Virus record (IMG/VR): IMGVR_UViG_3300025128_004625
Span: 1-24,578 of that record
Length of the DNA stretch: 24,578 bases
Reading direction: 5' to 3' (one strand)
Origin: a virus
How positions within the stretch are numbered: the first letter of the stretch is position 1; the number at the start of each line of letters is the position of its first letter. Of this stretch, positions 6,546 through 23,269 are shown piece by piece. A model generated the notes under the pieces. It was not told the origin of the DNA. It did no database searches and worked only from the letters and a program-made list of their open reading frames with translations. Position numbers and translations under genes: made by a program.

Positions 6546-7012
6546 TGGGTGGTAGTCGAAGGGCGAATCGGCCAGCGAATCCTGCTGCACAAGCAACTCA
6601 GCCCGCTCAAGCGGCACCTATGGGTACTGCTGGTGAGATGGGGTACAGTGAGGGAGAGGAGGCGATGTCGGCACAGGCAGCGATTGGGCTTCCTGATAAT
6701 CGAACTCCTGCTATTCAGGGACCATCTGGCCCGGTTGCTACAGCGACTCCCGGCCCGCCAGTAGATGCTCTGGACGCTGCTCGTGCTTATACTCCTAATG
6801 TCATGTCGCTCAATGCGCCGGATGATATGCCTACGATGGAATTGATGGTTGGTGCGGAACGACGTAAGCGTTCGGAAAGTGCTTTGGCAAAGCGCCGACA
6901 AGAGGCTGCAACAATCAAAATGTTTGAGAGTCTTGTGGATTTAAATCCAAATAACCCGGACTATGAAGGTGTTCTACAGACTTTGTACATGCGTACAGGT
7001 AGATACGTATGA
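6545..7012 (+). CDS. Small disordered post-portal virion protein
   Basis: 155 residues in a TAATG overlap with the portal and an ATGA overlap with the giant gene. AGGGG lies 7 bases before the start. Residues 1-95 are poor in hydrophobics and rich in Ala, Pro, Gly and Gln (SRRANRPANPAAQATQPAQ, GPVATATPGPPVDAL), hence likely disordered. Residues 105-155 form a charged amphipathic helix region (ERRKRSESALAKRRQEA) ending LYMRTGRYV. Small proteins that begin with a basic NPA-rich stretch followed by a GxxYGE-like motif sit right after the portal in actinobacteriophages as I remember them. The visible GEMGYSEGEEAM fits that pattern. I do not know its function; a portal partner or scaffold-like role is possible. 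Confidence 0.6.
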   Translation: MGGSRRANRPANPAAQATQPAQAAPMGTAGEMGYSEGEEAMSAQAAIGLPDNRTPAIQGPSGPVATATPGPPVDALDAARAYTPNVMSLNAPDDMPTMELMVGAERRKRSESALAKRRQEAATIKMFESLVDLNPNNPDYEGVLQTLYMRTGRYV

Positions 7013-10000
7013 CCGGACCTGCGGGGCCAGAGAATACTGGTGAGGCCGGTCATCTAACGGGTGGTGGTGGTAGTCGTAGTACGGCTGTACCGTCATTAGA
7101 ACAAGAGCGCCAGAATGAACGCATGGAGTTGCTGATACAGAACGGCGCACACAACTATCTTGCTAGTGATCCAGAACTTCTTTCTGAACTTGTTAAAAGT
7201 AATCTTTCTGACACAGACATGCTTATGGCTTGGATTGACGGGTTCACTGAGATACAGGCTCATGAACATATAGAAGCGTTTAAGGAACATGCTGATGACC
7301 ATCAGCGAAATATATACAATACCTTTAATCCTTTGACGCAGGACTTCTTGAAGTCGTATGGCTACAAGTTGCCGCATGATCATTTGGATTGGTGGAATCC
7401 CGGTGACTGGGCACAACTCGCACAGAAGAAATTTTCTTCTCAAAGAAATATTCCATTGGCAATTGTAACTGCTCCGGGTTGGGCGATTGCTCAAACAACG
7501 CAGGGTGTTTCCGACACAATTAAAATGGGTTGGCAAGCAATAGAACATACCGCACGATTTTCTGAGCGTATGTATCGTGCTGGAATTGATGCGGCAAAGT
7601 CCGAAACTGCCAAGGGTCGGGGTGAACTCTACAATCCTTTGAACTGGTGGGAGGGTTGGCAGAACGCAGAATTTCATGGTGCTTCTTTTACCACAGAGTC
7701 AAAAGATAAAGCATTGGACCTGCTTGGTGATCAAAAGCATTTCGACATTATGATATCTATTCGTCGTTATGGCAGCGTTGAGCAGGGTCTTCACGAATAC
7801 TTTCTTTCTAAGAATGGTAATGATTCGAAGCAGGCAATTTCAGATGCACTTGATTTTTTGGGATCTGGCGTCATCGTTTCTGATGAATGGAATACAGCAC
7901 AAGAGATTCTAAACGCTGGTACTACTCAAGCCATGCAACACACGATGCAGGGCTGGGAAAGTATGGTACGGGAAGTTCCCCAGTATTTTGGTGGGTTGAG
8001 AGGCCAACCAGATGCACCGATGGAGGATGCATCCAGAATATGGGTTAAGGGCCAAATGGTTTCTGGATTTGGTGCTGAAATGCTTGGAAGCATGATGTTC
8101 GAGCCGTTCAATCATCTTGATATTTATTTGACAATGCGTCGTATGGGGAAGAAAGTTCCGGGTGTTACGGCAGGTAATTGGGTAGAGCAGATAGATCGTA
8201 CTCATTTGCAGGCTGCGAGTTATCGTGCCTATGAGCAGGCCAAGGCAGGCGAGGATCTTGTTGATGTAGTTTTAAGGTCACGTGTTACTAATGGAATGTT
8301 GGTTGATGCAGATGTGGGTGTTAAAGCGAATTTCAAACAGTGGGCGCAGGACAGGCTTGGTGATGATCTTGATTGGCTTAGGGGAAGTTCAGGTGGTATC
8401 CGTGCCGGATTGACGCGAGTAAACGACGAGGTTGATTTTGTCAATAATGCGTTTCGCGCTCATATCGAATGGCGAATGAGGTCTGTTCGGGCTGCCGGTA
8501 ATGGTGAAGATTTTCGTGAGGCTGATCCTATGATCAGGATGTTGACTGATCGGAATCCTGCCTATATGGATGCAATCCCACTCATGCTGCGGTATCACGA
8601 GGATGCTGTGTGGGGAAGATACAGCGGTGTAGACGATGTTGGAGAAGGTGCTGAACTGGTTACAGGTCGGCTTGGATTGGATACCTATGACGGGTATTGG
8701 GAGTTTTATAGAACTGTAGGTGGCGCACAGGTTTTGGGGGGTCGTCTGCTTGGTGGATATCAAGGCGAGAAATTGTTTCTACCAAACTTGGGATATACCG
8801 CAAAAGCAAGATTGCGTTTGGCTGGACTTAAGAGAGGTTTGTTAGACAGGGGTGATAGGGTTGATGAGGTTCCCGGTATTTGGGCTGAAACCTTTAGTCA
8901 TTTTATTGCAACTGAAACCGATATTATCATCGGGAATCTATACGATAATCTTCAAGGGTATATAACTCAGCCGAATCTTTTCCCTGAGATTGCCGAGGCT
9001 GGTAGTCTGCACCATGCCGCATTTGAATTGACACGGTTCGAATTGCAGAAATTGTTGACTGATCCAGAACATTACACTCAAATACTTTTGAATAGTGGAT
9101 ATGCGAAATATGAAGGTTTGGCAAAGACAGATATTGACATTCTTCTAAATTTGGCGAATAAGCAGGGCGAGACAAATATTCAGAGACTAGAAGGTATTTA
9201 TAGGCATATTCAGGGGGGTGGATCTTTGGACGATCTGCCTGAGAACCTTATTCTTTCTGACGATCTTATGGACGTATTGAGAACTAGGTGGCCTGATATT
9301 TCTTCAACGTTCGTGTATTGGGATGACTTGCCCGGTCCAAAGGGACTATCTCATCCTAAGTGGCTGGATCAGGGTATCCAATACGTGAAGAATCGGCGTT
9401 TGGGGTATTTGCATCAGCCGGGTAGCAGCGAGGATCTGCTGTTAAGAAAGTTCCCAGAACGAATTGTAAGAATTGGGGAGAAGACTTGGGAAGAATTGTT
9501 GCAGATGGGTTACGATGTTGGCCCATATCGTACAAATCTGAGGAAGGCTGGTTACACCAACCCGAAGCAATTGTTGGAAGCAATTGACGAATTCTCTATT
9601 AGGGAAGTAGCAGAGCAGGTTGGCCTTGAAACTTCAGAACTAAAATGGTTTCTAAAGAATAGGCTTCATACGGCTGTTTCTGAAAACAAGTTCTATGATG
9701 CCGCAGGTAAGATTAAAGATTCAGTCCTTGTGGGTCTTTATACTGGAGCGGCGTTTCCTTTTAAGATTCACGAAAGCATATTTAGACTTACACCAAAGAA
9801 AAAGTGGATTGACGTTCAAGGCTTGGGCATGAGCGATGCTGCGCCCATTAGAGACTTTGAAGCATTAATCAGGCAAGGTGTCTTGGCTGGTATGCCACGG
9901 CAAACAATCGATTGGTATATTTCACGATTTGCACATGGTGATGAAGCAACACGATGGGGTCTTGTCAACGATGTTGTAACAGAATTCTTGGGTCGTGGTG

Positions 10001-13000
10001 GCGCATTGAGGTATGGAGGCAAGCACGTTAAGGCATCATGGGACAAGTTTGTTCGTGGTGCCGACATGATCTATGGAAATACTGGTGCAGATCAGTTCAT
10101 GTCTCGTCATCGTATGACTCCTCGTGCGATAACTCCAGCACTAGCCAGCGAAGGTTACCGTTCTCAAGCAAATGTTATTCCTAATTGGCATGAAATTGGT
10201 GAAATGACCAAGTACATGGGTTATATGCGGCATCTTGGCTATAACTTGGGAAGAGCGCAGGTTGATACCTTTTTTCAGAAACATTGGGTTCCGTGGGCTT
10301 TGTTCAAGCATGGACTTGCTATCAGGAATGCTGTCGATGAGTTGCTGATTGCTACTTTGAATCACGGAGCCGGTTTCTATATTGATGCGAAACTTTCCAA
10401 GGCTGCGCTGAATCAAACCAAGATTTTCGATGCCTACGGAAATCGAATCATTCTAGATAAAGATGCTTTGATCGGTACGCCACCGTTGCGTACAGATGAT
10501 GTAGTAGCAGCAGAACATATTGCCAACGTTCAAAGAGAGTATGAAGCAGCAGTCAATTATTCACGTACTGAAGGTACAAGGGCACGCAATTTGTGGGCAA
10601 CACGTGGCATAAATTGGGTGTTCAAGAATTTCCTTGACACGCTCACGGTTGGGCGTGGAAAGGCGTCAAACGCTAAAGCAAGAGACATTGCTAAAAAGCA
10701 TCCTATGTGGCCTAGAGCGACTGATGCAGAGAAAGAAGTTTTGATATTAGAGGCTGCTGCTGAAAGAGCCGGTAACCATCACCTCTCAGCACATCTGCGT
10801 ACTGTCAACAATTTTGCTGAACGGGTTTCTCACGACATGGCTGGTCTGCTTCACGCAGGAGCAAATGCGTTGCCATTTCCGTTTGAACCGTTCAATGAAG
10901 CAGCAGCAAGACTTCTACGCAGAAACGATGCAAGAAACTTCCATGCAGCGAGGCTACTGGTAGCCCATCCCTTTACTGCATCACCGCATTTGGAAGGGAT
11001 TCTTACTCCCTTCAAAGGATACTACGATATAACGCAGCGACCAAATGTGGCACAACTACTAGGTTCGCAAAGCATCGCTGATCCGACGGTACTTGATTGG
11101 ATGAAGTTGGATTACAGCGACAGTGCGTTGGCATGGCGATTCCCGCAGGGAATTGAGAATGATCCGCTTTCAAATCTTCAAGCAGCAGGCCAACACATGC
11201 AAGCGTTTTGGGCTGATGAACCAGTTTATGCAATACAGGCTCGTGTAGTGGCCCATAATATTGGACCTGACTTTGGTCCGAAGTTGGATGATATTGTAAA
11301 GAAATTGGGTATTAAAATTGACGATGATCTAGAGTTGACTGCTACGCAGAATCAGGCAAAGTCTGCACGATATATCTATGAATTGATGGCGGGCACTATT
11401 GGCGACGGAAGCAACTATCATCTTCGTGAGTTGATTCGGACTTACTATATCGCTGAAGCAAATTCTTTAGCCTCTGGAGGATGGCGTAGTTTAGATGCCT
11501 TCTTCCCGCAGGGAATAGATTGGAATTCTAAATCGGCAGCAGACAAGATACTTCAAAGTATATCTGATCCTAATGCTAAGGCGGTTCTAGCAGAAATCTT
11601 CGCAATGGATACGGTGTCTCGTCAGCAGACGTTGGCTTGGCTTTCGATCCGTGATCTTGATCCACGACTAATGGATACTGATATAAATGTTCTCTATGCG
11701 CGAGGGGTTGAGGATGCCACAAATGAATTGATAACTGTCGATGGTATTGAACGGTTGCACGCGATGGCTCGTACTCATGGTGTTGATCCCATATTCGCCC
11801 AGATGCAAAGGGCCACCACTCCAGACCAATTGCGTCTATGGCATCCACAGGCAAATGTCTTTGAGAGCATGGGCTTGTCTTACATGTTTATGAATCCGGG
11901 TACACCTGTTGCAGATAAGATGTTCGACTCGTTGAAAGAGTTTTTGACTTTCTATCTTGAATCAGATGATCTTGCAGTTTCTGTTATACATAGTTTGAAT
12001 CCTGCAAATAATCCACACGGGTCGGTATTGCCTACAAAATGGCTAGAAACTTATGTCCCCGGAGCCACTGTAGCATTGGCTCCGGGTGCTGTTGCGCCTA
12101 GTCCCCAAGCGGTAAATATTGCCATTCAGGGATTCTTGGCAAATATTACAGATACCCGAATTGTGAATATGCCAATACCACTATTGGTTGGATCCCATAA
12201 CCCTCATCTTTCTAAGAAAGTCGGTCTTGCCGTTCGACGGTGGTACAAGTGGTTGGCTGCGGATGAAGATTTTCCGGTTGATGGTATTAGAGCGATTCTG
12301 GAGAAGTCCAAGGAAACGGCAGATGATATTCTTCTAGAAAGCCGCATTGTTAGTTTTGCTGAATATGATGCTCAACCGTCGTTTGGACAGACATTTTCAG
12401 TAACTGCTGGTAATCGAATTCCTATTTCCAATATTGGTGGTCCTGAATCGAATCCACCAAGAATATTTGTGCAGGGAAGTATGGGTCCAGATGGTCAATG
12501 GATGAGTACGACAGATTTGCCGACAAGGTGGTCAGCCGTTCCTGATCCAGATGCTCCAGCAGGAGAAACTTGGGAATTGGCTTCAAGAACTCGTGGAACG
12601 GTTAGAGATGAGAAACGTGTAATAGATAGGCGTGAATATTTGGAATCACAGATCATAAATTCGATGCGTGGATTTGAGACTCTTCCAGATGAAACTGTTG
12701 TTCAGTATTTCTTCTCGCCTTCGATGAGTAACGATCCCATGTACGAGAATGTCTTCCGATACCATCGTGAACCGGTCCCATCGCAGAGAATCGCTCCTAT
12801 TTATGATGAGTTTGGCGCACGTATGGAGCGACTTATTGATTTGTTCAATGAGTATTCTGATGGTACCCACACTTGGGGACAGTTCGAAGAGGCTATTTGG
12901 CGTCGCTTTGGTGACGCTCCTGTTACTGCCAAGAAGGGTATTGGCCCGCAAATGCGGATTGAGGAATCACGGGACTTTATTGGAACAGTTGGCGAAGGGC

Positions 13001-16000
13001 CTATTGGTGAGCATGGATTCCGACGAATCTTCGATCATCATAAAGAATCGGACATTATTCCTTCAAGGAGATTGACCAAGGAACCGATAGGAGATATTAA
13101 TGATTTCCCCGGCAGGGACAAGTTGCCAATAGGACAGTGGCTTCGTACTCGTATGCAATCCGGTAGTGCCCTTGAGGGAGAATCATTTGGTCAGCCACTT
13201 ACGGGACAAGGAAGGCGATCTGGCGCTGGAAGGCACGGTGCGCGGGGGACTCCTGAAGGTACTGTAGACGTACCAGAGTCTGAATATACAGAGTTCCTTG
13301 ATGACGATTTGCGGGGAACACTAGCGGAGTATCAAGCGGCAGCAGAACAATTGACTGCTCATGCACATGGTCAACCAGTTGAAGCGGGACTGAAAGACTT
13401 CTTTGCGTGGCGACAGAGCCTTCTGAATGACAATATTGAGCATATTGATAGTGTCTGGCCGTTCTGGGAGGCGGGAGCAGTACCGGAAGAAATAATTATT
13501 CCTCCACAGGCAGCCACTTGGGATGATTTGAAGGATCCGCTAACAGGTGAACCAATTCCTGAAATGCTTGGACAAATTAATGCTGAACGAACGAAGGCGA
13601 TAGCCGATGCGAAGAATGCGGAGGTACGAAGGACTCGTATCGAACGGTTCTTCCAAGAGTCACGCGAAACGCTTGAACAGCGCAATGTTCCAATTGATTA
13701 TGAGGTTATGCGAGGTGGAGTAGTTTCTCCTGTAGAACGCCTAGTTCGTAGCAGGATGAATAATTTCCCAGTAGCAGACATGCCTCGTAACTTGTGGATG
13801 TGGGAACCTACATTGGGGAGGTCGGTCAGACCCGGCGATGTCGGTGGTTTCACTAAGAATAATAATCCATTTGTTGCCGTTCATGCGGAAACTGTGGGTC
13901 TTGGATTTGAAACAGTTGCTGGTTCAGGAACTATAAGACTGTTGAATATGTATCGTCATACTGGTACTGGCGATTTTATTTGGTTGAGAGATGGAGCAGA
14001 ATTGGTCTTACCGTCATTTCGTGGCGTGGCTTCAAGGCAGATAGGGCCTGCTGCCGATCCTTCTCCAGTAGTTACTTCTGTTCCAGATTCTGTAATTCCC
14101 CAACAGAATATTGATGCTCGGTTGGATATTGGTGGGGCAGATATAGAACTTCATCCCGGTGCTATCGATGTTCCATTTGAATACTTGGATACCGAAATTG
14201 CTAATCAACCTCCATCTCCAGTTGATCTAAACTTTCGAAGTAAGGGGAGGGGACTACCTGAAATACCTGTTTACAATTCATTGGATGTGAAGAAGCAGGT
14301 CGTGGTTATGGATCATCAATACGAGATGCTGCTTCGTGGTGAGATGTCTGGCTTTGCGGTACCACCACAAACAGAGAAAGGCAAGATGGTTGTTCAGGGT
14401 CGTACAGATCCGATGTCTGAAACTCTTAAGGCTCGTAGCGGTCAAAAGCGTCCGCTTCTAATGGACGAGGATCCAGAGGTCGGTCAGGTCTTTACCAAAC
14501 TATCAAAGACTAGAGGTCGTGGCCCCTTGACGGGTGTGGAAGAAGGCGACCTTCTTGAACTTAGGCCAAGGGCTACCTATCGCAAAAAGCCCGGTCCTGT
14601 TGAAAAGAAACTGATTGAAGAAGGTCGGATCAAAGGTGCGAAGCGTGGTAGGACTATTGCGGCAGGAGGCGTCCCCTATCCTGTAAGAGTTAAGAAAGTA
14701 GTTAATGCTAGAACTATATCGCATGAAGACTTTGCAGAACTTGTGGGAATAACCGTAGAGGAAGTTAAGGCTAATTGGAATTCAGGTAGGAACTACAGTC
14801 GCTATCGGGTCGCTATGATTGAACCGGTTGTAGGAAAGTCTGGGTGGCAGAAGTCGCATTTGAATATTGACGATCCAAATAAGAAATCGCCACGAACACG
14901 TGTTATGGGTGACCCCGGAACAAGTTATTCCTATACCGGCAAGACCTTTGAGCCGCAGCCTTGGTCCCCGATGATTGCCGTTATCAGGGATCGTATTGAA
15001 CAAATCACTGGCTACCAGTTTGATCTTGTGATTGCTCAACGTTATGACACTTTTGATACCAAGTTAGGCGCACATTTTGACAGGGTTGGGAATGATTATA
15101 ATCTTCCTGAAGAGATCGTTGTTTCTGTCAACTTTGGTGCTACACGAAATTTCCAGTTTCGGCCTCGCCGTAAGATTAAGTCGGGTGAGCGCGCAGGTGA
15201 AGGTACCGGAGATTTGTACCATTACTTCGATGATCCTACACATAAGCGGGAGCCGGGGCCGGTTATCGAACTTCATGAGGGCGACATTCTCGCAATGATG
15301 AAGGGCACGAATGCCAATTGGGAACATCAGGTTCTAGAGGGTCTAGCGGATTCGGGACCGCGAATCAATCTGACATTCCGTAGAATAAGCGAGCAGACTA
15401 ACAAGCAGGTTCGTTTCCAAGATCCACCAGATCCGGTTACCGCAGCCGGGACTGTAGCAGTTCATCCTTCTGGACTGGAGAAAATCATTTCTGGTGGTCA
15501 AAACGGTGCTGATGAGGCCGGGTTGTTGGCTGCTCGGGAGTTGGGTATACCCACGGGGGGTACCGCTACATATCGGTGGGATACGACATTGGGGCCGAAA
15601 CCGGAGCAGGCTGAACAGTTTGGTTTGGTGGCAGATGCGAAGGATTTCCCGAAAGCGGCGTCACGGTATGGATCCCGAACTAGGCAGAATGTAGTAAATT
15701 CTGATGGGACAGTTCTCTTTAGTGAAAACACAACAGATGCGGGAAGTGCCTTAACTATAAATATAGCAGAACAACTTGGGAAGCCTCTACTTCACGTTTC
15801 TGGAACTAGCGATAAGGCAAAAGCAGAGTTTATACAGTGGCTGACTGATAATAATATCCATACTTTGAATGTTGCGGGTAATCGAATGTGGACTAAGCCG
15901 GGTCAATTACGGCGTAGTGCAGACTTTCAGGATCGGGTGCATCAGTTCCTTCTAGACGCGCTGAGAAGCATGGGGGATCTTCCTGTTACCGCTGGTACCG

Positions 16001-19000
16001 GTACCCCTCCTGCCAGTCTAAGTACTACCATGCTGGACGAGGCAACCTCTATACCAGAGAATATCACTAATTTCGATCAGTTCGAGACTTGGGCTGCTGC
16101 CGAGTTGGTTGCTATGCCATCAGCAGTTAGGCCAGAGGAAGCCGCATGGCGCGCACTACATCTGAAAGACTGGCCTGCTGCCGATAAGGCGTCGATTGAA
16201 GCATTAGCAGGCATCGGCATGTGGGATAAATCGTTTCAGGGATTGTCGTATGAAAAGCGTCCCATATGGTTTGCGCGTGATACGCCGGAAGAGTGGGCGC
16301 AACGCCAGAGTAATGATAGTGGAATGAGAAATCACGATTTGCATATTGCTACTGGACCGGTGGGAGATACTAGTGAAGCGGCGTTTTATAGAGAAATGGA
16401 GGAAGCCGACGCAGCACGCGGGTTGTTCCCAGATGAACCCCATGTCGTTGAGCATCTTCGTCGCTATGGGTACAGCGATGAGGATATTGCTAGGTTGCAG
16501 GGTCCACCCGGTGCTGCTCCTGCTGCTGCTGCTGATACCGGCCCGGTCACAGTTTGGGCAGGAAACACTCCAACAAGACCTAGATCAAATCCAGAGTTGT
16601 CTAATGTCCAAGACCTACCCGGAGGGTTCACCTTTAGAGGAAAGACGTTTGTAAGTCCTGAAGCCGCATATCAGGCCCATAAGTCCGGGTTGAGGTCAAC
16701 AACTGATTCTGCGACCGGGAGAAGATACGACAAGGAAGGCTACGATCTTAGCGAACCTTGGGTTGAAATGAAGGGCTGGACTGCCAAAGACAAGGGTCGT
16801 GGCCGACGGGTCGATATGTCGAAGGGTCCGACTGATTCTGTTCACCTTATGGAAGAAATTGTTGATGCGAGATTGATGCAAGACTCAAAATTTATAGAGG
16901 CTTTGGCTGCTACAGGCGACCGTAGGATTCTTCATCCGTCTAATGATATTTGGGAAACTGAGTATCCAAGAATATTGATGGAGAGGCGACGCTCAGTACA
17001 AGAGGCTGTCAATTCGGATAGACCTCCGGTTGCACCTGTGAGTAGGACTGCTAAAGAAGAGATGGATAGTGGCGAGTGGGAGTTGGTTGAACAGCAGTAT
17101 TTGGGTCCACATGATGAAATGAATGCTGCTGAACATTTTGCACGTACAAGTTTTCGAGAGGTAATGTTCTTGGGAACTAATGAGAATAAGACGGCGCGTG
17201 CGGCACGAGCCGGTGGTGAGATAGCACGAATGACAGAGCCTTCGGCTTTGCCGGGTCTGGCAACTGATTTGCCGGAAGGTGCGCTTGCGGGAACAGGAGC
17301 AGGGAGGCCAGATTCGCATTATTCTTGGCTGTTGGAAGCGATTGATCCTCCCGGTGGGACAATATCAAAGCAGCGGATACTACAGATCCATAATCCAGAT
17401 TATGTACCGGATCGTATTTCTGGTAAAGCACCTGTTACTGCTGCCCGTGATAAGCCACGGTGGGATGATCGCCTAAAGCGATCTTTCTTTGAATCTCAAA
17501 TTCAGCCGATGATTACTGCGATGATTCGGGAGCCTCTGTATTTCCATAACTTTAAGGAAGCCCTTAATTTGATGGATGGGTACAGGGTTTTCTTCCATCA
17601 TGAACTAAATAGATTTGCGGGACTAGATGAGATTCTTAGAACTCCGTTGGATGGTTTGGTTGATGAACTCTTTAAAAAGCCTTATGCTGCCAATTTGCCT
17701 CGTCCGGTAATGAGGCAAGTCTCTGATGGCGGTAAGACCCAGTGGAGACTTTTTGATGAATCAAGCGAACGCTTGGATGAAAGTGTTCCAAAGAGAAGGG
17801 GTCAGCAAAGATCGAATTTCGATGACTTCCTAGAATTTGAATATCAGAATCTTGTTCGAATGGAGCAAGATGTAAATGATCCAGCGAGTCGTATGGCTCA
17901 TTTGCTTGCACAGTATTTTGATAATGTTACGGATACGAGTCGTCCTGATGCAATTGACAAGATGTTCTATCTGGATAGGCGCACGTATCATATCCATGAT
18001 GGAAATACTCCATTGTATCTTCCTGATGGAAGTCCCTTGTTGGGTGAAATTTGGGACTTGGGTCCGTTCTATAAGTTGTTTGGCTCAACTGGTGTACCGG
18101 GTGAAGGCTTTGAAAGGTTCTTTGATGCCATACGGATGAATAATGCAGAGGATTACAGCAGATTGAAGAGAGGTATGGTTGAACTAATGGCTGGTCGTAT
18201 CCAGATGGAAGTTAAACATGCGGAATTGGCTATCGAACGTGCAGCGGGTGTCACATCAAAGTTTGTTGATAACCATGCTTTGAGAACACAGTTTCAGGCA
18301 CAGGCGGGTACTGCAATCCCGTTCTTCTTCGCACAGTTGCAATTCCTGCAACGGTGGGGACGCACACTCAAGTATCATCCTAATGCTTTGAGCAAAATGA
18401 ATTGGTGGCTACTTGCTGCCCAGCGTTCGGGCTATATGTTTACGGATACTAGAGATGAACAGCGTGTAATGATTCCGGGTACGGAGTGGACTACGCAGTT
18501 CACGTTTGAAACGATGGCAAAGTTCCCGCTTGTACGCCGTATCTTTGGTGATATCGCCGTAATGGGTGACGATTACACTATGAGAAATGACCGGCTTTCT
18601 CCCGGTTATGATCTAGATAATATTGCTAACATAACGTTTGGGCCGATGATAAGCCTACCATCCAATTTGTTTTCGATGATTGATCCGAAACTTGCTTCCG
18701 ATGAATGGATGGGTCCAAGCCTTGTCAGTCAGTGGGCGTTCTTGTCGGAAGGTTTGGATACATCGGGACCGGATTGGGATGCTCAATCTTTCTGGAGGAT
18801 TGCCTTTGGTTCGGTTCTGCCTGCGCCGATAGTAAATGTGGGAACCGTGATAACTTCGTTGATCGCATCTAACATATTTGGTGCCAGTTCTGGTGCGGGA
18901 GATAAAGCATTCTTTGATGCAGTCTATATGACAGCGAATAATGGTTGGCTACCTGATCCTATCGATATGACTGATCTGTCACGTAGTGAGCATGATTTGT

Positions 19001-20106
19001 TGAATCAAGATACACTTAATGCTTTTTATCATCTTGGTAATTCATTGATGCTAATTAGAGGTCTTACTGGATCGTTTGGTCCTACACGTATGGATCCTGC
19101 ATCTCTTGTCGATCCAAAGGATTGGGAATGGAATGAGAACTTCCAGAAGTTGATTGATGAGGGTGCAACTCACGAAGAAGCATTCAGTACAATGTACGAA
19201 GAGTATTTTGATGAGTTTGTAGCGGAACAAACTGCTTTGGGGAAAACTGAGGCTGAAATTCTGCGACTTTGGCAGCCAGAAATCTTGAAGATTTCAGTAT
19301 TCTCAACTGGTAAGACTGGTAAGGATACTATCGCGGCGTTGCCACAGACTGTTGCTGCGATGGAATGGTTGGATACTCCGGGGAATACGGAGTTTCTTAA
19401 TAATTATCCGAAGGTTGGTGGATTCTTTATTCCTCGTGGGGTAACTGAAGAGAGTCGTGAATACGATATGGGTGCTATTAATCGATACATTGGTATGAAT
19501 ATGCGATTCAGGCAGGATCCTGAAGAATGGATTACAGGAGTTTATGTACATGAGGGTGCGATGCAGTATTACCCGAAGAGTCTAGAGCATAAGCAGAGGA
19601 TGGCAGAATATCGGGCTGCTGAGAAGCAGGGACTACCTAACTATGTGAACCCCGGAGAGTCTTGGGCACAAACGAAACTTGATGAACAGAAGATATGGGA
19701 TACATGGGAAGAAACGTTTAAGAACTTTCATCCTATATTTGCTGCCAGTTTGGTTGAGCAGTATTCGGGTTTGCGTCGTGATGATGCTCTTGAGGAAATG
19801 GCTATCTTGATGGCTAATGTTGATCAGATTCCTGATACGACGTATAAGAACGACATCGTGATGTTTATGAATGATATTCTTAAACTGAATAGTGCGTTGC
19901 GAGCGATGGCTGGTATTACTGATCGGACTGCTACGGCGAGGCGTAACTCTATTAAGAAAAAGTATTACGAACACGTGCAAAACTTTATTGTGGGAAGTCA
20001 CCGTAAGCCGTGGCTATTCGAACTTTACAATAATTTGTTTATACCTTTGATCGAAGAAAGTTGGATTGTAAAATATGATGCTGGCACTCATGCCTACGAG
20101 GAGTAA
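7009..20106 (+). CDS. Giant 4365-residue polyvalent-type virion protein with AlkB, MoCo-carrier/SLOG and NADAR-like domains
   Basis: One open frame of 13.1 kb, beginning in an ATGA overlap with AGGT 8 bases upstream and ending in a double stop (TAATAA). Residues 1-1970 are largely helical. They include a W1093-E1111 stretch (WVPWALFKHGLAIRNAVDE) of a type I recall from giant virion proteins of actinobacteriophages. Residues about 1975-3475 are a chain of modules: helical linkers, a possible ART-like segment (2225-2345), an ASCH-like segment (2430-2610), AlkB (2615-2795), MoCo-carrier/SLOG (2822-2968) and NADAR-like (3180-3332). Residues 3480-4365 return to structural sequence with AIPFFFAQLQFLQRWGR (3770-3785) and a hydrophobic stretch at 3935-3960. 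PVTA recurs at 1971, 2809, 2992 and 3475. Position after the portal suggests packaging in the capsid and ejection with DNA. The enzyme domains are seen in sequence; the delivery and counter-defence role is inferred from the polyvalent-protein concept. Confidence 0.88.
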   Translation: MTGPAGPENTGEAGHLTGGGGSRSTAVPSLEQERQNERMELLIQNGAHNYLASDPELLSELVKSNLSDTDMLMAWIDGFTEIQAHEHIEAFKEHADDHQRNIYNTFNPLTQDFLKSYGYKLPHDHLDWWNPGDWAQLAQKKFSSQRNIPLAIVTAPGWAIAQTTQGVSDTIKMGWQAIEHTARFSERMYRAGIDAAKSETAKGRGELYNPLNWWEGWQNAEFHGASFTTESKDKALDLLGDQKHFDIMISIRRYGSVEQGLHEYFLSKNGNDSKQAISDALDFLGSGVIVSDEWNTAQEILNAGTTQAMQHTMQGWESMVREVPQYFGGLRGQPDAPMEDASRIWVKGQMVSGFGAEMLGSMMFEPFNHLDIYLTMRRMGKKVPGVTAGNWVEQIDRTHLQAASYRAYEQAKAGEDLVDVVLRSRVTNGMLVDADVGVKANFKQWAQDRLGDDLDWLRGSSGGIRAGLTRVNDEVDFVNNAFRAHIEWRMRSVRAAGNGEDFREADPMIRMLTDRNPAYMDAIPLMLRYHEDAVWGRYSGVDDVGEGAELVTGRLGLDTYDGYWEFYRTVGGAQVLGGRLLGGYQGEKLFLPNLGYTAKARLRLAGLKRGLLDRGDRVDEVPGIWAETFSHFIATETDIIIGNLYDNLQGYITQPNLFPEIAEAGSLHHAAFELTRFELQKLLTDPEHYTQILLNSGYAKYEGLAKTDIDILLNLANKQGETNIQRLEGIYRHIQGGGSLDDLPENLILSDDLMDVLRTRWPDISSTFVYWDDLPGPKGLSHPKWLDQGIQYVKNRRLGYLHQPGSSEDLLLRKFPERIVRIGEKTWEELLQMGYDVGPYRTNLRKAGYTNPKQLLEAIDEFSIREVAEQVGLETSELKWFLKNRLHTAVSENKFYDAAGKIKDSVLVGLYTGAAFPFKIHESIFRLTPKKKWIDVQGLGMSDAAPIRDFEALIRQGVLAGMPRQTIDWYISRFAHGDEATRWGLVNDVVTEFLGRGGALRYGGKHVKASWDKFVRGADMIYGNTGADQFMSRHRMTPRAITPALASEGYRSQANVIPNWHEIGEMTKYMGYMRHLGYNLGRAQVDTFFQKHWVPWALFKHGLAIRNAVDELLIATLNHGAGFYIDAKLSKAALNQTKIFDAYGNRIILDKDALIGTPPLRTDDVVAAEHIANVQREYEAAVNYSRTEGTRARNLWATRGINWVFKNFLDTLTVGRGKASNAKARDIAKKHPMWPRATDAEKEVLILEAAAERAGNHHLSAHLRTVNNFAERVSHDMAGLLHAGANALPFPFEPFNEAAARLLRRNDARNFHAARLLVAHPFTASPHLEGILTPFKGYYDITQRPNVAQLLGSQSIADPTVLDWMKLDYSDSALAWRFPQGIENDPLSNLQAAGQHMQAFWADEPVYAIQARVVAHNIGPDFGPKLDDIVKKLGIKIDDDLELTATQNQAKSARYIYELMAGTIGDGSNYHLRELIRTYYIAEANSLASGGWRSLDAFFPQGIDWNSKSAADKILQSISDPNAKAVLAEIFAMDTVSRQQTLAWLSIRDLDPRLMDTDINVLYARGVEDATNELITVDGIERLHAMARTHGVDPIFAQMQRATTPDQLRLWHPQANVFESMGLSYMFMNPGTPVADKMFDSLKEFLTFYLESDDLAVSVIHSLNPANNPHGSVLPTKWLETYVPGATVALAPGAVAPSPQAVNIAIQGFLANITDTRIVNMPIPLLVGSHNPHLSKKVGLAVRRWYKWLAADEDFPVDGIRAILEKSKETADDILLESRIVSFAEYDAQPSFGQTFSVTAGNRIPISNIGGPESNPPRIFVQGSMGPDGQWMSTTDLPTRWSAVPDPDAPAGETWELASRTRGTVRDEKRVIDRREYLESQIINSMRGFETLPDETVVQYFFSPSMSNDPMYENVFRYHREPVPSQRIAPIYDEFGARMERLIDLFNEYSDGTHTWGQFEEAIWRRFGDAPVTAKKGIGPQMRIEESRDFIGTVGEGPIGEHGFRRIFDHHKESDIIPSRRLTKEPIGDINDFPGRDKLPIGQWLRTRMQSGSALEGESFGQPLTGQGRRSGAGRHGARGTPEGTVDVPESEYTEFLDDDLRGTLAEYQAAAEQLTAHAHGQPVEAGLKDFFAWRQSLLNDNIEHIDSVWPFWEAGAVPEEIIIPPQAATWDDLKDPLTGEPIPEMLGQINAERTKAIADAKNAEVRRTRIERFFQESRETLEQRNVPIDYEVMRGGVVSPVERLVRSRMNNFPVADMPRNLWMWEPTLGRSVRPGDVGGFTKNNNPFVAVHAETVGLGFETVAGSGTIRLLNMYRHTGTGDFIWLRDGAELVLPSFRGVASRQIGPAADPSPVVTSVPDSVIPQQNIDARLDIGGADIELHPGAIDVPFEYLDTEIANQPPSPVDLNFRSKGRGLPEIPVYNSLDVKKQVVVMDHQYEMLLRGEMSGFAVPPQTEKGKMVVQGRTDPMSETLKARSGQKRPLLMDEDPEVGQVFTKLSKTRGRGPLTGVEEGDLLELRPRATYRKKPGPVEKKLIEEGRIKGAKRGRTIAAGGVPYPVRVKKVVNARTISHEDFAELVGITVEEVKANWNSGRNYSRYRVAMIEPVVGKSGWQKSHLNIDDPNKKSPRTRVMGDPGTSYSYTGKTFEPQPWSPMIAVIRDRIEQITGYQFDLVIAQRYDTFDTKLGAHFDRVGNDYNLPEEIVVSVNFGATRNFQFRPRRKIKSGERAGEGTGDLYHYFDDPTHKREPGPVIELHEGDILAMMKGTNANWEHQVLEGLADSGPRINLTFRRISEQTNKQVRFQDPPDPVTAAGTVAVHPSGLEKIISGGQNGADEAGLLAARELGIPTGGTATYRWDTTLGPKPEQAEQFGLVADAKDFPKAASRYGSRTRQNVVNSDGTVLFSENTTDAGSALTINIAEQLGKPLLHVSGTSDKAKAEFIQWLTDNNIHTLNVAGNRMWTKPGQLRRSADFQDRVHQFLLDALRSMGDLPVTAGTGTPPASLSTTMLDEATSIPENITNFDQFETWAAAELVAMPSAVRPEEAAWRALHLKDWPAADKASIEALAGIGMWDKSFQGLSYEKRPIWFARDTPEEWAQRQSNDSGMRNHDLHIATGPVGDTSEAAFYREMEEADAARGLFPDEPHVVEHLRRYGYSDEDIARLQGPPGAAPAAAADTGPVTVWAGNTPTRPRSNPELSNVQDLPGGFTFRGKTFVSPEAAYQAHKSGLRSTTDSATGRRYDKEGYDLSEPWVEMKGWTAKDKGRGRRVDMSKGPTDSVHLMEEIVDARLMQDSKFIEALAATGDRRILHPSNDIWETEYPRILMERRRSVQEAVNSDRPPVAPVSRTAKEEMDSGEWELVEQQYLGPHDEMNAAEHFARTSFREVMFLGTNENKTARAARAGGEIARMTEPSALPGLATDLPEGALAGTGAGRPDSHYSWLLEAIDPPGGTISKQRILQIHNPDYVPDRISGKAPVTAARDKPRWDDRLKRSFFESQIQPMITAMIREPLYFHNFKEALNLMDGYRVFFHHELNRFAGLDEILRTPLDGLVDELFKKPYAANLPRPVMRQVSDGGKTQWRLFDESSERLDESVPKRRGQQRSNFDDFLEFEYQNLVRMEQDVNDPASRMAHLLAQYFDNVTDTSRPDAIDKMFYLDRRTYHIHDGNTPLYLPDGSPLLGEIWDLGPFYKLFGSTGVPGEGFERFFDAIRMNNAEDYSRLKRGMVELMAGRIQMEVKHAELAIERAAGVTSKFVDNHALRTQFQAQAGTAIPFFFAQLQFLQRWGRTLKYHPNALSKMNWWLLAAQRSGYMFTDTRDEQRVMIPGTEWTTQFTFETMAKFPLVRRIFGDIAVMGDDYTMRNDRLSPGYDLDNIANITFGPMISLPSNLFSMIDPKLASDEWMGPSLVSQWAFLSEGLDTSGPDWDAQSFWRIAFGSVLPAPIVNVGTVITSLIASNIFGASSGAGDKAFFDAVYMTANNGWLPDPIDMTDLSRSEHDLLNQDTLNAFYHLGNSLMLIRGLTGSFGPTRMDPASLVDPKDWEWNENFQKLIDEGATHEEAFSTMYEEYFDEFVAEQTALGKTEAEILRLWQPEILKISVFSTGKTGKDTIAALPQTVAAMEWLDTPGNTEFLNNYPKVGGFFIPRGVTEESREYDMGAINRYIGMNMRFRQDPEEWITGVYVHEGAMQYYPKSLEHKQRMAEYRAAEKQGLPNYVNPGESWAQTKLDEQKIWDTWEETFKNFHPIFAASLVEQYSGLRRDDALEEMAILMANVDQIPDTTYKNDIVMFMNDILKLNSALRAMAGITDRTATARRNSIKKKYYEHVQNFIVGSHRKPWLFELYNNLFIPLIEESWIVKYDAGTHAYEE
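13681..14043 (+). other. Possible ADP-ribosyltransferase-like segment of the giant protein
   Basis: Residues 2225-2345. The spacing resembles the R-S/T-E class of ADP-ribosyltransferases: VMRGG with R2235, a phenylalanine-bounded block (FVAVHAETVGLGF), a strand TIRLLNMYR, and GAELVLPSF with E2331 in the place of the late catalytic glutamate. No clear S-T-S motif is visible, and only one glutamate is present where many members have E-x-E. This is a weak, pattern-based suggestion; it may be an unrelated beta-rich module. Confidence 0.25.
14296..14838 (+). other. ASCH-like (PUA-fold) segment of the giant protein
   Basis: Residues 2430-2610. The order VVVMDHQYEMLLRGE (2431-2445), GVEEGDLLELRPR (2509-2521), YPVRVKKVVNARTISHEDF (2557-2575), VGITVEEVKANW (2579-2590) and SRYRVAMIEPV resembles ASCH domains: helix with Leu-x-x-Gly, a G-D-x-(L/V)-x-L strand, a V-x-x-V strand followed by an s-x-E-D/E-f helix, and a final V strand. 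ASCH domains share the PUA fold and bind RNA or modified nucleosides. The insert between the first helix and the G-D motif is longer than usual, so I keep the call tentative. Confidence 0.42.
14851..15393 (+). other. AlkB-type 2-oxoglutarate/Fe(II) dioxygenase domain of the giant protein
   Basis: Residues 2615-2795. The domain opens SPRTRVMGDPGTSYSYTG, like the P-R-x-x-x-x-G-D-x-G-x-x-Y-x-Y-S/T-G start of ALKBH2/ALKBH3-type enzymes, followed by WSPMIAVIRDRIEQITGYQF. The iron ligands are H2689 and D2691 (AHFD) and H2773 (NWEHQ). The 2-oxoglutarate and catalytic arginines are R2785 and R2791 in RINLTFR. The 12-residue gap between the second His and the first Arg, and the 6-residue gap between the arginines, agree with known AlkB homologues. 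VSVNFGATRNFQFRP and LHEGDILAMM give the expected core strands. All catalytic residues are present, so oxidative removal of alkyl groups from nucleobases is predicted. The natural substrate here is unknown. Confidence 0.93.
15472..15912 (+). other. MoCo-carrier / SLOG-type nucleotide-binding domain of the giant protein
   Basis: Residues 2822-2968. KIISGGQNGADEAGLLAARE (2825-2844) with LGIPTGG is the glycine-rich first loop of the putative molybdenum-carrier family (PF12694 as I know it), where SGGQTGAD is usual. SRYGSRTRQNVVNSDGTVLF gives the y-x-x-R-T-x-x-N-V-x-x-S/A-D-G-T motif, and LNVAGNRMWTKPG matches the closing N-V-A-G-x-R. The family belongs to the SLOG superfamily, which binds nucleotides or NAD-derived ligands. 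Despite the name, molybdenum cofactor transport is not suggested here. The visible binding-loop residues are intact apart from the T to N change in GGQNGAD. Confidence 0.88.
16546..17004 (+). other. NADAR/YbiA-like domain of the giant protein
   Basis: Residues 3180-3332. The core FRGKTFVSPEAAYQAHKSG (F3207-G3227) has the S-x-E-x-x-Y-Q-A-x-K motif with E3218. Further on, LMEEIVDARLMQDSKFIEAL, ATGDRRILHPSNDIWE and YPRILMERR match the helix, a-T-g-x-x-x-L/I-x-x-x-x-x-x-D-x-x-W and L-M-x-R-R ending of YbiA-type proteins. NADAR domains act on ADP-ribose-linked substrates; some members remove ADP-ribose from guanine. A tryptophan common in the R-x-D-W block appears to be methionine here (RVDM, M3270), and the usual Y-W-G after N-D is shortened, so activity may be altered. 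The fold call is fairly safe, the activity less so. Confidence 0.72.
18811..18888 (+). other. Hydrophobic segment near the C terminus of the giant protein
   Basis: Residues 3935-3960 (SVLPAPIVNVGTVITSLIASNIF and following GAS) form the most hydrophobic stretch that I find in the protein. It could be a membrane-active or buried helix. In a protein ejected with DNA, such a segment could help to cross the cell membrane; this is inference. Confidence 0.4.
20098..20103 (+). promoter_or_regulatory. Shine-Dalgarno for the gene at 20109
   Basis: GAGGAG lies 5 bases before ATG 20109 and overlaps the last codons of the giant gene. A double stop TAATAA sits between them. It is one of the strongest ribosome sites in the window and allows independent initiation after the 13-kb gene. 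Confidence 0.65.
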
Positions 20107-20108
20107 TA

Positions 20109-21911
20109 ATGCAAGGTGATTATGGGACTGGTCCTAGTGAGCCTGAACAGGATGCAGTAAGTGATGATCGTAATCCTGAGGCATCTACCACCACCGCACA
20201 ACCCTATCCATCTGTTGATACAGTAACAGTAGGGGGTGGGAATGCATCTGTAAGTATGGCGACATATCAGTCTAATCGTGATCCGGCTGACGCATTTGAA
20301 GCATTTATTAATTTGTTGCTAGATCAGAAGATTTTCTTTATTCGTGGATTTTCATCTGAACTCAGTGGCGATCCGATGCTGGATCCCTTCGGTTTGGCGA
20401 CACATCCCGATATGGCAAGTGCGGAAACCCAACTTGGTTGGGAGCATGGTGGCGATCCCGCTGAAAAGGCTACAATGGTAGAAATTGAATCTGCTGAAGG
20501 GCAGCAGCATTTGGAAGATGCGTGGCGTCACGAGCATAGTATATCTGCTGGTGACTTAACTGCTGATCAGAGAAAGCAGTTTGAGGATTGGCAGGACGCT
20601 ACGGTTGGCGGGAACGCCTTCATGTATCTACTAGAAGCAGGTGACCCTGCTCTTGGAACGATTACTGATTCCAATTATCCCTCTCTACTTGTTCCCAGTT
20701 ATGACGGAAGCGTCATGGGGAATATGAGTAGGATTGAGGAAGCATTGAGGGCGGTACCGTTGGATAGGCCGTCGTTTGATGCGTTTACCCATTCGATGTC
20801 TCGGTCGGATCCACGAAAATGGCGTGCTGTTCAGTCTGTCATGTCGATGATGGGGTACTACGGTGAGAATATTCCACAAATTCGGTGGGGAGGGCATTCC
20901 TATATAGATCGAAATGCTTTTCAATGGATGATGACAGATATTGTAAATGAGGAATTGAAGGTTGCTCAACACAACAGAAACAATCCTGACGCGCCTTTGC
21001 CTAAGCCCACGCTACGAGGATTTGTTGATCGTAAATATACCGAACATTTGGAGGAATCTGTTAGGCAGGCTAATGCTGGCGCAGATGGCTTGGCTGCCTT
21101 CGGTGGTGATGTGAGTACCCATATTCAAAACAATATTGCTGATTCTTTGAATTATCTAGGCCAGTCTGTTACTCCGTCTATGAAGAATCGCATTAATACT
21201 ATGGTTAATGAGATGTTTGTTGAGGGGGATTTGGATGCTGCGGCTGTTTTGAATACCGATTTGGTTGGGATGCAGGTAAGCGATGATGCGCTACGTAGTG
21301 CGGATGCTTGGTTGGCTGCGTTTCATGGTAACCAGAGGGGCTGGGAAGACAACATCCAGTTTGGTGTTAATGGTACGCCTACGGAGTTGCTGCGTATCGC
21401 TCGGGGGGCCGGTGTGGACCTTACCGGTGTAAACGTGCAGGGCAAGTATCGGGAACGGGAACTTGGCCCTGACGGGGAGATGAGAGATGTCGTAACTGGA
21501 GAGTTTGCACCGATTTCGGGCATGACAACAGAGCAACGGCACAACGTCGCTCGTTGGTACTTCTTGACTCTTCTACAACAAAACAATAATAACTTGAGTG
21601 TTACTGCGAATCAATACGCAAACACTATCGGTAACCGTGTATTCGAACAAAGCGGTTTTGATGATGCGTGGCTAGATAATACTGTTCGTATTGCCAATCA
21701 AGATCCAACTTCGTTTGCTTATCGGGCAGGCTGGGATACGTATGAGGAACAAAGTCAGGAACGAATCGATGCGTTGAATAATGTTGAAGCACGTGTCATG
21801 GCTTCTGAAGATTTCTCTAACATCAGTAATAAGGCTGGATCAAAGGCTTTGGCTGCTGCATTGACCGCTATGACAGGTAGTTCTTCTAAGCAGAGGCGAC
21901 CACGGCTATGA
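20109..21911 (+). CDS. Virion-type protein of unknown function, 600 residues
   Basis: It starts 2 bases after the giant gene's stop, behind a strong GAGGAG, and ends in an ATGA overlap. Residues 1-50 are Ser/Thr/Gly-rich and probably disordered. The rest is mostly helical, with many Trp and Asn residues, no signal peptide and no clear membrane segment. Residues about 237-285 (RKWRAVQSVMSMMGYYGENI, then DRNAFQWMMTDIV) recall a helix pair with an M/L-x-x-x-G-(F/Y)-Y turn that I associate with large virion proteins of actinobacteriophages. The C terminus is basic (SSKQRRPRL). I cannot assign an enzyme fold. By position it is a companion of the giant protein, perhaps another internal capsid or ejection protein. 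Confidence 0.6.
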   Translation: MQGDYGTGPSEPEQDAVSDDRNPEASTTTAQPYPSVDTVTVGGGNASVSMATYQSNRDPADAFEAFINLLLDQKIFFIRGFSSELSGDPMLDPFGLATHPDMASAETQLGWEHGGDPAEKATMVEIESAEGQQHLEDAWRHEHSISAGDLTADQRKQFEDWQDATVGGNAFMYLLEAGDPALGTITDSNYPSLLVPSYDGSVMGNMSRIEEALRAVPLDRPSFDAFTHSMSRSDPRKWRAVQSVMSMMGYYGENIPQIRWGGHSYIDRNAFQWMMTDIVNEELKVAQHNRNNPDAPLPKPTLRGFVDRKYTEHLEESVRQANAGADGLAAFGGDVSTHIQNNIADSLNYLGQSVTPSMKNRINTMVNEMFVEGDLDAAAVLNTDLVGMQVSDDALRSADAWLAAFHGNQRGWEDNIQFGVNGTPTELLRIARGAGVDLTGVNVQGKYRERELGPDGEMRDVVTGEFAPISGMTTEQRHNVARWYFLTLLQQNNNNLSVTANQYANTIGNRVFEQSGFDDAWLDNTVRIANQDPTSFAYRAGWDTYEEQSQERIDALNNVEARVMASEDFSNISNKAGSKALAAALTAMTGSSSKQRRPRL

Positions 21912-23269
21912 CAACTGAAACCTATCAATCACCTATTGCAGTTCTGGATGGTTTATGGAAACCATTCGGTAGGTATGTAAGCAGGTTTCTTGGCTATATG
22001 GGGAATGATGTTATGCCTGTTGTGGGCCGCGTACAGAATGACGAGGCTCGTCAAATGTATGATGCCGTATTCCAGCAGTTGGGAGAAGAAGCAAATACCA
22101 TCTTTGGTTCTGCTAATGGAGACATATTGAAAGATGGGTTAGGTGTATGGGTTACTTGGAAAGATGATGCTGCTTTGAACAAGGCTCTTGAAGTTGCTGC
22201 TGATTATGGCATCTCTTTGAATCCTGATTCCCCAAACATTATTGAACCTTTGGGATTGAGAAATAATGAGACTCCGTATGAGATACCGGGGGTTGATGTA
22301 AGCAAGTATTCGGGTACACGTGGAAGCCAGATGAATAACGGTGCCGGTCTTGTTGGTGATTCATTTGATTCCATAATGGGTGCGATGTTTTATGACAGGA
22401 ATTGGACTCCAGAAGATAAATGGCATCCCGGCGAAATGTATATAAATATCTTGGATGGGGCTGTTGATGCTTCTAGCCCTGAGTTTGCTGATTGGTTCCA
22501 GTCTGCGATGGATATGTGGATGGGTGAATCTTCTGAGATGCGTCAGCAGTTCTTCTACGATCTGTTGGCTAGTAACCCGGATGCTTGGGCTGATTGGATC
22601 CATGAATGTATTTATCCACCGGATGAGCGGCCTTCGCGTACAACTAAGATTACTCCTGAGCCTGAAGATTCTGAAGAAGAAGAAGGAGGAGAAGACGGTC
22701 GCGGTGGACATGAAAGGCCGGGACGAGAGTGGGAAGAAGGAGGAGAAGACGGTCGCGGTGGACATGAAAGGCCGGGACGAGAGTGGCCCGACGACCCGCC
22801 CCCCGGTACTGGTGGGCATAAGAAGCCGATACCGGTAGATCCGAAACCTGATGGTCCTCAACCAGACCCGCCTCATGGTGAACATCGGCGTCCTGTTGAG
22901 CCAGAAAGAGAAGGATCAGAACCACTTGAAACTCATACATGGCCCGGAGGTGGGTTGGCGCGTCTTCTAGGAGAAGAGGAACCTCATACAAGATCGATAT
23001 GGCCGGGTAGGAGGAGACATCCGCTTGATCCTGAAGCCGATAATTTTTTCTCAGGATTGTGGGGATCGATATTGAGGCTTGGACCGGATGCTATAGAAGA
23101 ATGGATTATGGATAATTACAATTGGGACAGACAACGAGAGCGTTCTAAACTAGGTGTTGGATCAGATTGGGATCCTGAAGGGGGATGGGATGCCCATTGG
23201 GATAACAAGTGGGCTACTCAGGAGCGGCGTTGGGAAGAACGTCTGGCTGATAAACGGAGGAATGCATAA
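21908..23269 (+). CDS. Virion-type protein with acidic, His/Arg/Gly-rich central linker, 453 residues
   Basis: It begins in ATGA overlap with AGAGG 11 bases upstream and ends TAATG. There are three regions. Residues 1-235 are a folded, helix-rich part (GLWKPFGRYVSRFLGYMGND; FADWFQSAMDMWMGE; ASNPDAWADWIHECI). Residues 240-370 are a highly charged low-complexity linker: acidic run DSEEEEGGEDG, then two identical 18-residue units ending GGHERPGREW, then Pro/His-rich text (PPGTGGHKKP, PHGEHRRPVEP). Residues 380-453 form a tryptophan-rich end (SDWDPEGGWDAHWDNKWATQERRWEER). I do not recognise a family. The alternation of compact ends and flexible charged centre suggests a bridging virion protein. 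The nucleotide-identical duplication in the linker is recent. Confidence 0.6.
   Translation: MTTETYQSPIAVLDGLWKPFGRYVSRFLGYMGNDVMPVVGRVQNDEARQMYDAVFQQLGEEANTIFGSANGDILKDGLGVWVTWKDDAALNKALEVAADYGISLNPDSPNIIEPLGLRNNETPYEIPGVDVSKYSGTRGSQMNNGAGLVGDSFDSIMGAMFYDRNWTPEDKWHPGEMYINILDGAVDASSPEFADWFQSAMDMWMGESSEMRQQFFYDLLASNPDAWADWIHECIYPPDERPSRTTKITPEPEDSEEEEGGEDGRGGHERPGREWEEGGEDGRGGHERPGREWPDDPPPGTGGHKKPIPVDPKPDGPQPDPPHGEHRRPVEPEREGSEPLETHTWPGGGLARLLGEEEPHTRSIWPGRRRHPLDPEADNFFSGLWGSILRLGPDAIEEWIMDNYNWDRQRERSKLGVGSDWDPEGGWDAHWDNKWATQERRWEERLADKRRNA
22679..22786 (+). repeat. Perfect 54-base tandem duplication
   Basis: Copy 1 is 22679-22732 and copy 2 is 22733-22786. By direct comparison the two are identical at every base and keep the frame (18 codons each). 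The absence of even synonymous changes, unlike the old 60-base repeats at 2310, points to a recent slippage event. Confidence 0.95.
23256..23262 (+). promoter_or_regulatory. Shine-Dalgarno for the gene at 23269
   Basis: GGAGGAA lies 6 bases before ATG 23269. It is near-consensus and fixes the start in the TAATG overlap. Confidence 0.65.

Follow-up and report, generated by a model that had tools for sequence, protein, structure and literature searches.

Exchangeable AlkB, SLOG and NADAR domains within a giant late protein of a probably short-tailed phage

The window analysed here is the whole of IMG/VR virus record IMGVR_UViG_3300025128_004625, from an uncultured phage (24,578 bases; labelled W below), and our subject is the giant open reading frame (ORF) that it carries. 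On this one polypeptide of 4,365 residues lie an AlkB dioxygenase, a cpYpsA-type SLOG domain and a NADAR domain. The giant is a conserved chassis, N- and C-terminal, flanking an exchangeable internal payload. We lean towards reading it as a late protein of a short-tailed lineage, polyvalent and of the ejection type, with exchangeable counter-defence cargo. An initial annotation, made from the letters of the window, had described a single 13.1-kb frame joining the three domains between two structural-looking halves. That observation proved largely right and is partly confirmed: the frame (7009-20106, plus strand) is open from start to stop without interruption, and the flanking halves recur as conserved N- and C-terminal parts in every relative studied. 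Its interpretation is supported in part.

How secure are the three domain assignments? The AlkB domain matches Pfam PF13532 over residues 2629-2791 at 66.4 bits (cut-off 31.2; E 5.1e-18). It also matches structures of human ALKBH2 at E about 2e-15, its closest solved relatives being ALKBH2/3. The SLOG domain, annotated initially as a molybdenum-cofactor carrier or SLOG, matches PF12694 (cpYpsA) over residues 2826-2973 at 90.2 bits (cut-off 26.2; E 1.3e-25) and PDB 3imk, a ‘putative molybdenum carrier protein’, at E 5e-14. Both scores lie far over the curated cut-offs, which excludes a chance origin. The NADAR of the window is weak by itself (PF08719, E 0.038, 14.7 bits; phrog_1017, E 0.012) and becomes clear through its relatives, whose homologous domains match PF08719 at E 2.8e-6 to 2.7e-8, with up to 29.1 bits. 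In the PDB, a profile of nine NADAR sequences matches YbiA (E 1.2e-4) and the solved NADAR 8bau (E 0.017) best. The catalytic Glu, Lys and His (E30, K37 and H121 of the alignment) are invariant in all nine copies, and the His in the last strand is the marker of the phage gp30.3 type (PMC11543638, PMC11125620).

Might these domains be non-enzymatic passengers, folded spacers or binding modules only? We consider this very improbable. The HxD, distal His and RxxxxxR of AlkB are invariant in 11 of 11 copies and the GGQxGxD of SLOG in 8 of 8; together with the NADAR triad, these motifs have survived across divergent copies. The payload is under purifying selection, with a ratio of nonsynonymous to synonymous substitution rates (dN/dS) of about 0.2-0.4, well below 1. 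A passenger role would suit the ASCH-like part of the payload, which lacks the Lys, Thr and Arg of the enzyme YqfB, and the payload as a whole is dispensable in related lineages, since payload-free chassis exist.

How much of the giant is fixed, and how much is exchanged? Relatives came from a terminase search of viral contigs, in which 80 loci showed 81-95% identity, and giant genes were studied in 27 contigs plus the window. The orthologues, of 2,519-4,481 residues, occupy the identical post-portal slot in these relatives, so the giant ORF is not an accident of assembly. Profiles of residues 1-250 and 880-1160 match every giant whose N-terminal half is present; the C-chassis, residues 3741-4359, matches all 26 giants whose C-terminus is present, at E 1e-180 or better. 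Twelve giants, of 2,519-2,745 residues, are free of payload (L038, L091, L093-L095, L097-L099, L101, L102, L107 and L109). In a tree of the C-chassis, from which the shortened L089 was left out, the payload-bearing giants form two groups with 12 payload-free rows between them; the tree therefore needs two changes of label.

The order and content of the payload vary within and between these groups. In group one, W, L002 and L089 share ASCH-like, AlkB and SLOG parts; NADAR was seen in the first two, and L002 additionally has DUF7831 (E 1.4e-23) and a second ASCH-like motif. Also in group one, L110-L113 carry SLOG followed by AlkB, with DUF7831 also in L111 and NADAR also in L112. In W and L002 the payload is inserted between a shared segment M and the C-chassis; in L110-L113 it lies between the N-chassis and M. 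A third arrangement in this group is that of L100 (G014), where SLOG lies inside NADAR and halves it (residues 3081-3141, 3295-3439 and 3445-3532). In L111 (G026; residues ~2223-2333 and 2414-2486) the AlkB is interrupted by an inserted piece that weakly resembles ASCH (Pfam, E 0.14; ASCH-like profile of the window, E 0.011, a weak match). Group two, L096 and L103-L105 together with the truncated L106, has AlkB followed by NADAR; L096 also has DUF7831 and a weak match to another SLOG type, YAcAr. The chassis can thus accommodate large foreign domains, at more than one site, and exists naturally in forms with and without payload. This natural experiment can show which of the payload domains are important, so that their role is open to direct testing.

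Table 1. Features of the window and of its giant ORF (aa, residues of the giant protein).
Feature	Coordinates	Strand	Residues (aa)	Remarks
Terminase large subunit	3034..4728	+		phrog_38, E 2e-52
Portal protein	4728..6545	+		phrog_104, E 1e-10; matches portals of podovirus Manuel and ct2KA10
Giant ORF	7009..20106	+	4,365 in all	chassis and payload
N-terminal chassis	7009..10758	+	1-1250	
Segment M	11629..14268	+	~1541-2420	common to L002, L089, L100 and L110-L113; contains the ‘ART-like’ stretch
‘ART-like’ stretch	13651..14043	+	2215-2345	ART assignment unsupported
ASCH/PUA-like small beta domain	14518..14829	+	~2504-2607	tentative; model pLDDT 46-84 here
AlkB-type Fe(II)/2-oxoglutarate dioxygenase	14893..15387	+	2629-2793	HxD...H and RxxxxxR intact
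cpYpsA-type SLOG domain	15472..15963	+	2822-2985	recently exchanged block
Window-specific segment between SLOG and NADAR	15976..16503	+	2990-3165	L002 has an ASCH-like motif stretch and DUF7831 instead
Phage-type (gp30.3-like) NADAR domain	16588..17013	+	3194-3335	
C-terminal chassis	17449..20103	+	3481-4365	
453-aa protein	21908..23269	+		equivalent slot in relatives: SLT lysozyme-like protein or 1,484-aa NADAR+SLOG protein

Can exchange be followed at the level of a single domain? Over the giant gene W and L002 agree at 48% of four-fold degenerate sites; in the SLOG block (residues 2822-2985) they agree at 85%, and no other window of 164 codons exceeds 64% (387 overlapping windows; Fisher 5e-10). 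Against L089 the corresponding values for W are 82% in the block and 44% elsewhere. The synonymous divergence (dS) is 0.27 in SLOG and 1.1-3.2 elsewhere. Similarity rises near residue 2820 and falls near residue 2980, at the borders of the SLOG domain, the right-hand border being defined by the comparison of W with L002 alone since L089 ends there. Because synonymous divergence is low in this block alone, the simplest reading of the sequences is a recent recombination that moved the SLOG domain by itself, almost at its borders. An overlapping gene as the cause of the low synonymous divergence is not favoured: every other frame contains stops, the longest open run being 97 of 168 codons. The tree of AlkB is in weak conflict with that of the chassis; at p 0.14 in the approximately unbiased (AU) test, an independent acquisition of AlkB is not established. 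The giant as a whole is evolving far faster than its neighbours, as the terminase of the window is 95-96% identical to that of the L002 phage and the giant protein only about 57%. A broader proposal, which we put forward tentatively and with a little less than even confidence, is that an ejection protein has become a general cargo carrier. It would have several insertion points at which recombination at domain borders exchanges AlkB, SLOG, NADAR, DUF7831 and ASCH, and the virion would deliver strain-specific enzymes against marked nucleic acid and NAD-derived signals before phage gene expression.

Where does the payload begin? The initial annotation had placed it at 12931-17442, with tentative ASCH-like and ADP-ribosyltransferase (ART)-like segments ahead of AlkB. 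AlkB, SLOG and NADAR do lie inside that interval. The ART assignment for residues 2215-2345 was rejected: the stretch matches no family, it is modelled at a predicted local distance difference test (pLDDT) score of about 30, the candidate Arg, R2235, is kept in none of seven relatives, and the Glu is missing in L110-L113. Moreover, the stretch lies inside segment M, which is present in L110-L113 even though these giants have AlkB and SLOG at another insertion site; residues ~1975-2420 are accordingly not payload.

The ASCH-like segment fared better as a fold than as an enzyme. AlphaFold models of residues 2190-2625 and of the C-chassis have mean pLDDT values of 39.8 and 55.4, both of low confidence, and usable structure in the former is limited to residues ~2504-2607. 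With this low-confidence model, VIA-align gave E. coli YqfB as the best match (Z 4.7, root-mean-square deviation 3.2, 72 residues aligned), moderate support for the fold. CXorf40A, which we take to be another ASCH-type protein, ranks lower in the same list. Foldseek by itself found no match for residues 2190-2625, and the ASCH-like part has no match in Pfam. YqfB is an ASCH amidohydrolase of N4-acetylcytidine (ac4C) that requires a Lys-Thr-Glu triad and an Arg (PMC6972931). At the motif position the window has LLRGEMSGF and L002 has IVDGRASAV, and since Lys, Thr and Arg are absent, an activity of the YqfB type is not expected. AlkB, SLOG and NADAR do lie on one polypeptide; to speak of a ‘nucleobase-modification’ payload, as the initial annotation did, is overstated for the ASCH-like part.

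What kind of phage carries the giant? The genes of the window, all on the plus strand, encode a tail-fibre assembly protein, terminase, portal, a 155-residue protein, the giant and then proteins of 600, 453 and 332 residues. The giant is thereby placed among late genes: terminase, portal, a small ORF and the giant are followed by genes that match late genes of Streptomyces phage Manuel. Family profiles match the Manuel portal at 1e-13, gp12 at 4e-24, gp13 at 1e-20 and gp14 at 4e-24. The large post-portal protein of Manuel, gp10, is matched by one segment of the N-chassis at E 5.7e-8 and by the C-chassis at 0.005, and a 1,764-residue protein of ct2KA10 matches the C-chassis at E 2.5e-31. In the L002 phage the capsid protein belongs to phrog_1328, major head protein, and is similar to DUF5309-type capsid proteins; of the genes scanned in that phage, none could be recognised as encoding a tape-measure or sheath protein. 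Electron microscopy shows the Manuelvirus Abafar to be podoviral (PMC11536984), which, with the matches to Manuel and ct2KA10, supports a short-tailed phage and an ejection-type giant. We conclude, from gene content and homology, that the phage is probably short-tailed.

A terminase search for the host across 84,980 genomes found no relative; from the sources of the contigs, the phages are probably marine. A DNA-level search of the phage collection with the payload gave no match, nor did tblastn of the N half of the giant against phages.

If the giant is injected, what would its payload do? The conserved chassis would serve virion assembly and DNA ejection, and the internal payload (ASCH-like, AlkB, cpYpsA SLOG and phage-type NADAR) would enter the cell along with the DNA. 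Inside the cell, AlkB would take N-alkyl groups off nucleic acid by oxidation. NADAR would release ADP-ribose by hydrolysis, either from guanine or from small molecules derived from NAD, and SLOG would bind or cleave a signal that is a nucleotide or an NAD derivative. The joint effect would be to counter the marking of nucleic acid, or NAD-based immunity, upon entry. For AlkB of jumbo phages, a role in resetting methyl marks has been suggested (PMC7824862). In vitro, NADAR of the T4 gp30.3 type takes ADP-ribose off guanine (PMC11125620). Phage NADAR and SLOG, typically stand-alone proteins, have been argued to act mainly on soluble ADP-ribose derivatives (PMC9503650). We therefore favour a mixed payload, directed against both marks and signals.

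Several points weigh against this account. Presence in the virion and injection are predictions based on where the gene lies and on homology to late genes of podoviruses, and we infer the enzymatic activities, the substrates and the anti-defence role from the sequence. The chassis has no sequence or fold match to any solved ejection protein, its C-terminal part being modelled with low confidence. NADAR lies under the curated PF08719 cut-off of 35.1 in the window as in the relatives, although that cut-off is a threshold of detection and not a biological feature. The HExxH motif, frequent in polyvalent proteins, was not found in the giant of the window. Finally, the same type of phage NADAR gave no rescue from DarT1 in E. 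coli (PMC11125620), which leaves DarT-type marks weak as a candidate substrate, beside alkyl lesions and soluble ADP-ribose signals.

Might the injected payload instead be a repair kit, acting early on damaged phage DNA or on RNA or tRNA, rather than an anti-immunity device? AlkB proteins are classic repair enzymes, and the nearest solved relatives of this one, ALKBH2/3, fit such a role; ASCH is linked to modified cytidine (PMC6972931), and viral NADAR domains have been associated with RNA repair (PMC9503650). Yet the turnover of modules and the very recent exchange of SLOG resemble an arms race more than housekeeping repair, and the co-occurrence of SLOG and NADAR in viral genomes has been attributed to the countering of NAD-derived signals (PMC9503650). 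We therefore judge a repair kit unlikely, though deserving of attention, and prefer counter-defence cargo.

A separate question is whether the payload must ride on the chassis at all. In L099 the chassis, of 2,533 residues, is free of payload, and a separate protein of 1,484 residues is encoded three genes downstream, within that cluster and between chassis-linked genes. The latter contains NADAR (residues 867-982), an HExxH zincin motif (residue 1132) and SLOG (residues 1295-1451). Its slot is filled by the 453-residue protein in the window and by a protein with an SLT lysozyme-like domain in L096. Payload can thus be borne either by the chassis or by a late protein encoded nearby. HExxH motifs occur also in the giants L090, L092, L103 and L104 and in a separate protein of L094. 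These observations could be taken to mean that the payload is not injected, but is made late and works in the producing cell or in assembly, the fusion setting its amount or place or being cleaved; polyvalent proteins are indeed often predicted to be processed by zincins. However, delivery best explains the repeated insertion into the same late-gene protein, and late expression would come too late for a defence that acts at entry. We think it distinctly unlikely that the payload stays behind, and retain the reading of an ejected cargo. If it is injected, AlkB and NADAR enzymes would reach the cell ahead of phage gene expression. Such delivery would suggest that environmental, probably marine, bacteria have defences that use alkyl or ADP-ribosyl marks, or NAD-derivative signals.

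How does the giant compare with known systems? Polyvalent proteins (Iyer et al. 2017, PMC5512222) likewise combine several unrelated enzymatic domains on one polypeptide encoded among late genes, and zincin HExxH motifs likewise occur here in related giants or neighbours. They are already known; AlkB, NADAR and SLOG are absent from the text of that paper, and unlike in that account, the present giants allow a direct comparison of chassis with and without payload and of exchange at the level of domains. What is new is the combination of AlkB, SLOG and NADAR and the visible modularity of chassis and payload. In keeping with the initial annotation, which knew of no described system with this set in one virion protein, an open-literature search for phage, AlkB and NADAR found no paper describing such a protein in its title or abstract.

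The virion RNA polymerase of N4 (Schitoviridae) is likewise a giant, of ~3,500 residues, from a short-tailed phage; it is packaged, carries an enzyme as cargo and is ejected (PMC12633501). The present cargo differs in consisting of nucleobase and NAD enzymes. No T7-like RNA polymerase domain was matched in sequence searches of Pfam, PHROGs, NCBIfam and the PDB, the chassis model being too weak to exclude the fold. The gene order and the type of capsid protein of N4 differ from those of the present phages. Manuel gp10 and the 1,764-residue protein of ct2KA10 share the post-portal position and profile similarity to the chassis, but are much shorter; they were not among the matches listed when the payload region was searched by tblastn against the phage collection. 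Phage NADARs of the T4 gp30.3 type share the catalytic Glu and Lys and the last-position His (PMC11543638, PMC11125620), but are usually stand-alone, whereas the present NADAR is embedded in a giant late protein. With the NADAR antitoxin of DarTG1 it has the fold and the chemistry of de-ADP-ribosylation in common. DarT1-linked NADARs, however, have Asp in place of this His and lie in an operon with the toxin gene; general family scans of the window proteins recognised no DarT gene beside the giant.

Some further observations concern the relatives. The 1,484-residue protein of L099 (L099:2447-6898, minus strand) looks like a polyvalent protein of the classical kind, encoded next to a chassis that is free of payload, and contains a possible ART-like stretch (HFTTAEGRAGIL...LYLSL), judged by eye only. 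The HExxH zincin-like motif (WEHEIAHARLNH) of the most distant clade lies at residue 2181 of the L090 giant and at residue 2223 of the L092 giant. DUF7831, a family that no paper mentions in a literature search by that name, recurs next to AlkB and NADAR in the L002 giant (residues ~3100-3270), in L096 and in L111. In L091, L093-L095, L098, L102, L108 and L109 a protein of 850-1,400 residues (gene cluster c9) is encoded two genes downstream of a payload-free chassis; the four that were scanned have no significant match in Pfam, and these proteins may be candidates for unrecognised payloads. In L108 the giant gene itself (6104-14120) consists of two overlapping frames, of 1,497 and 1,190 residues, which may represent a frameshift, an assembly error or a true split.

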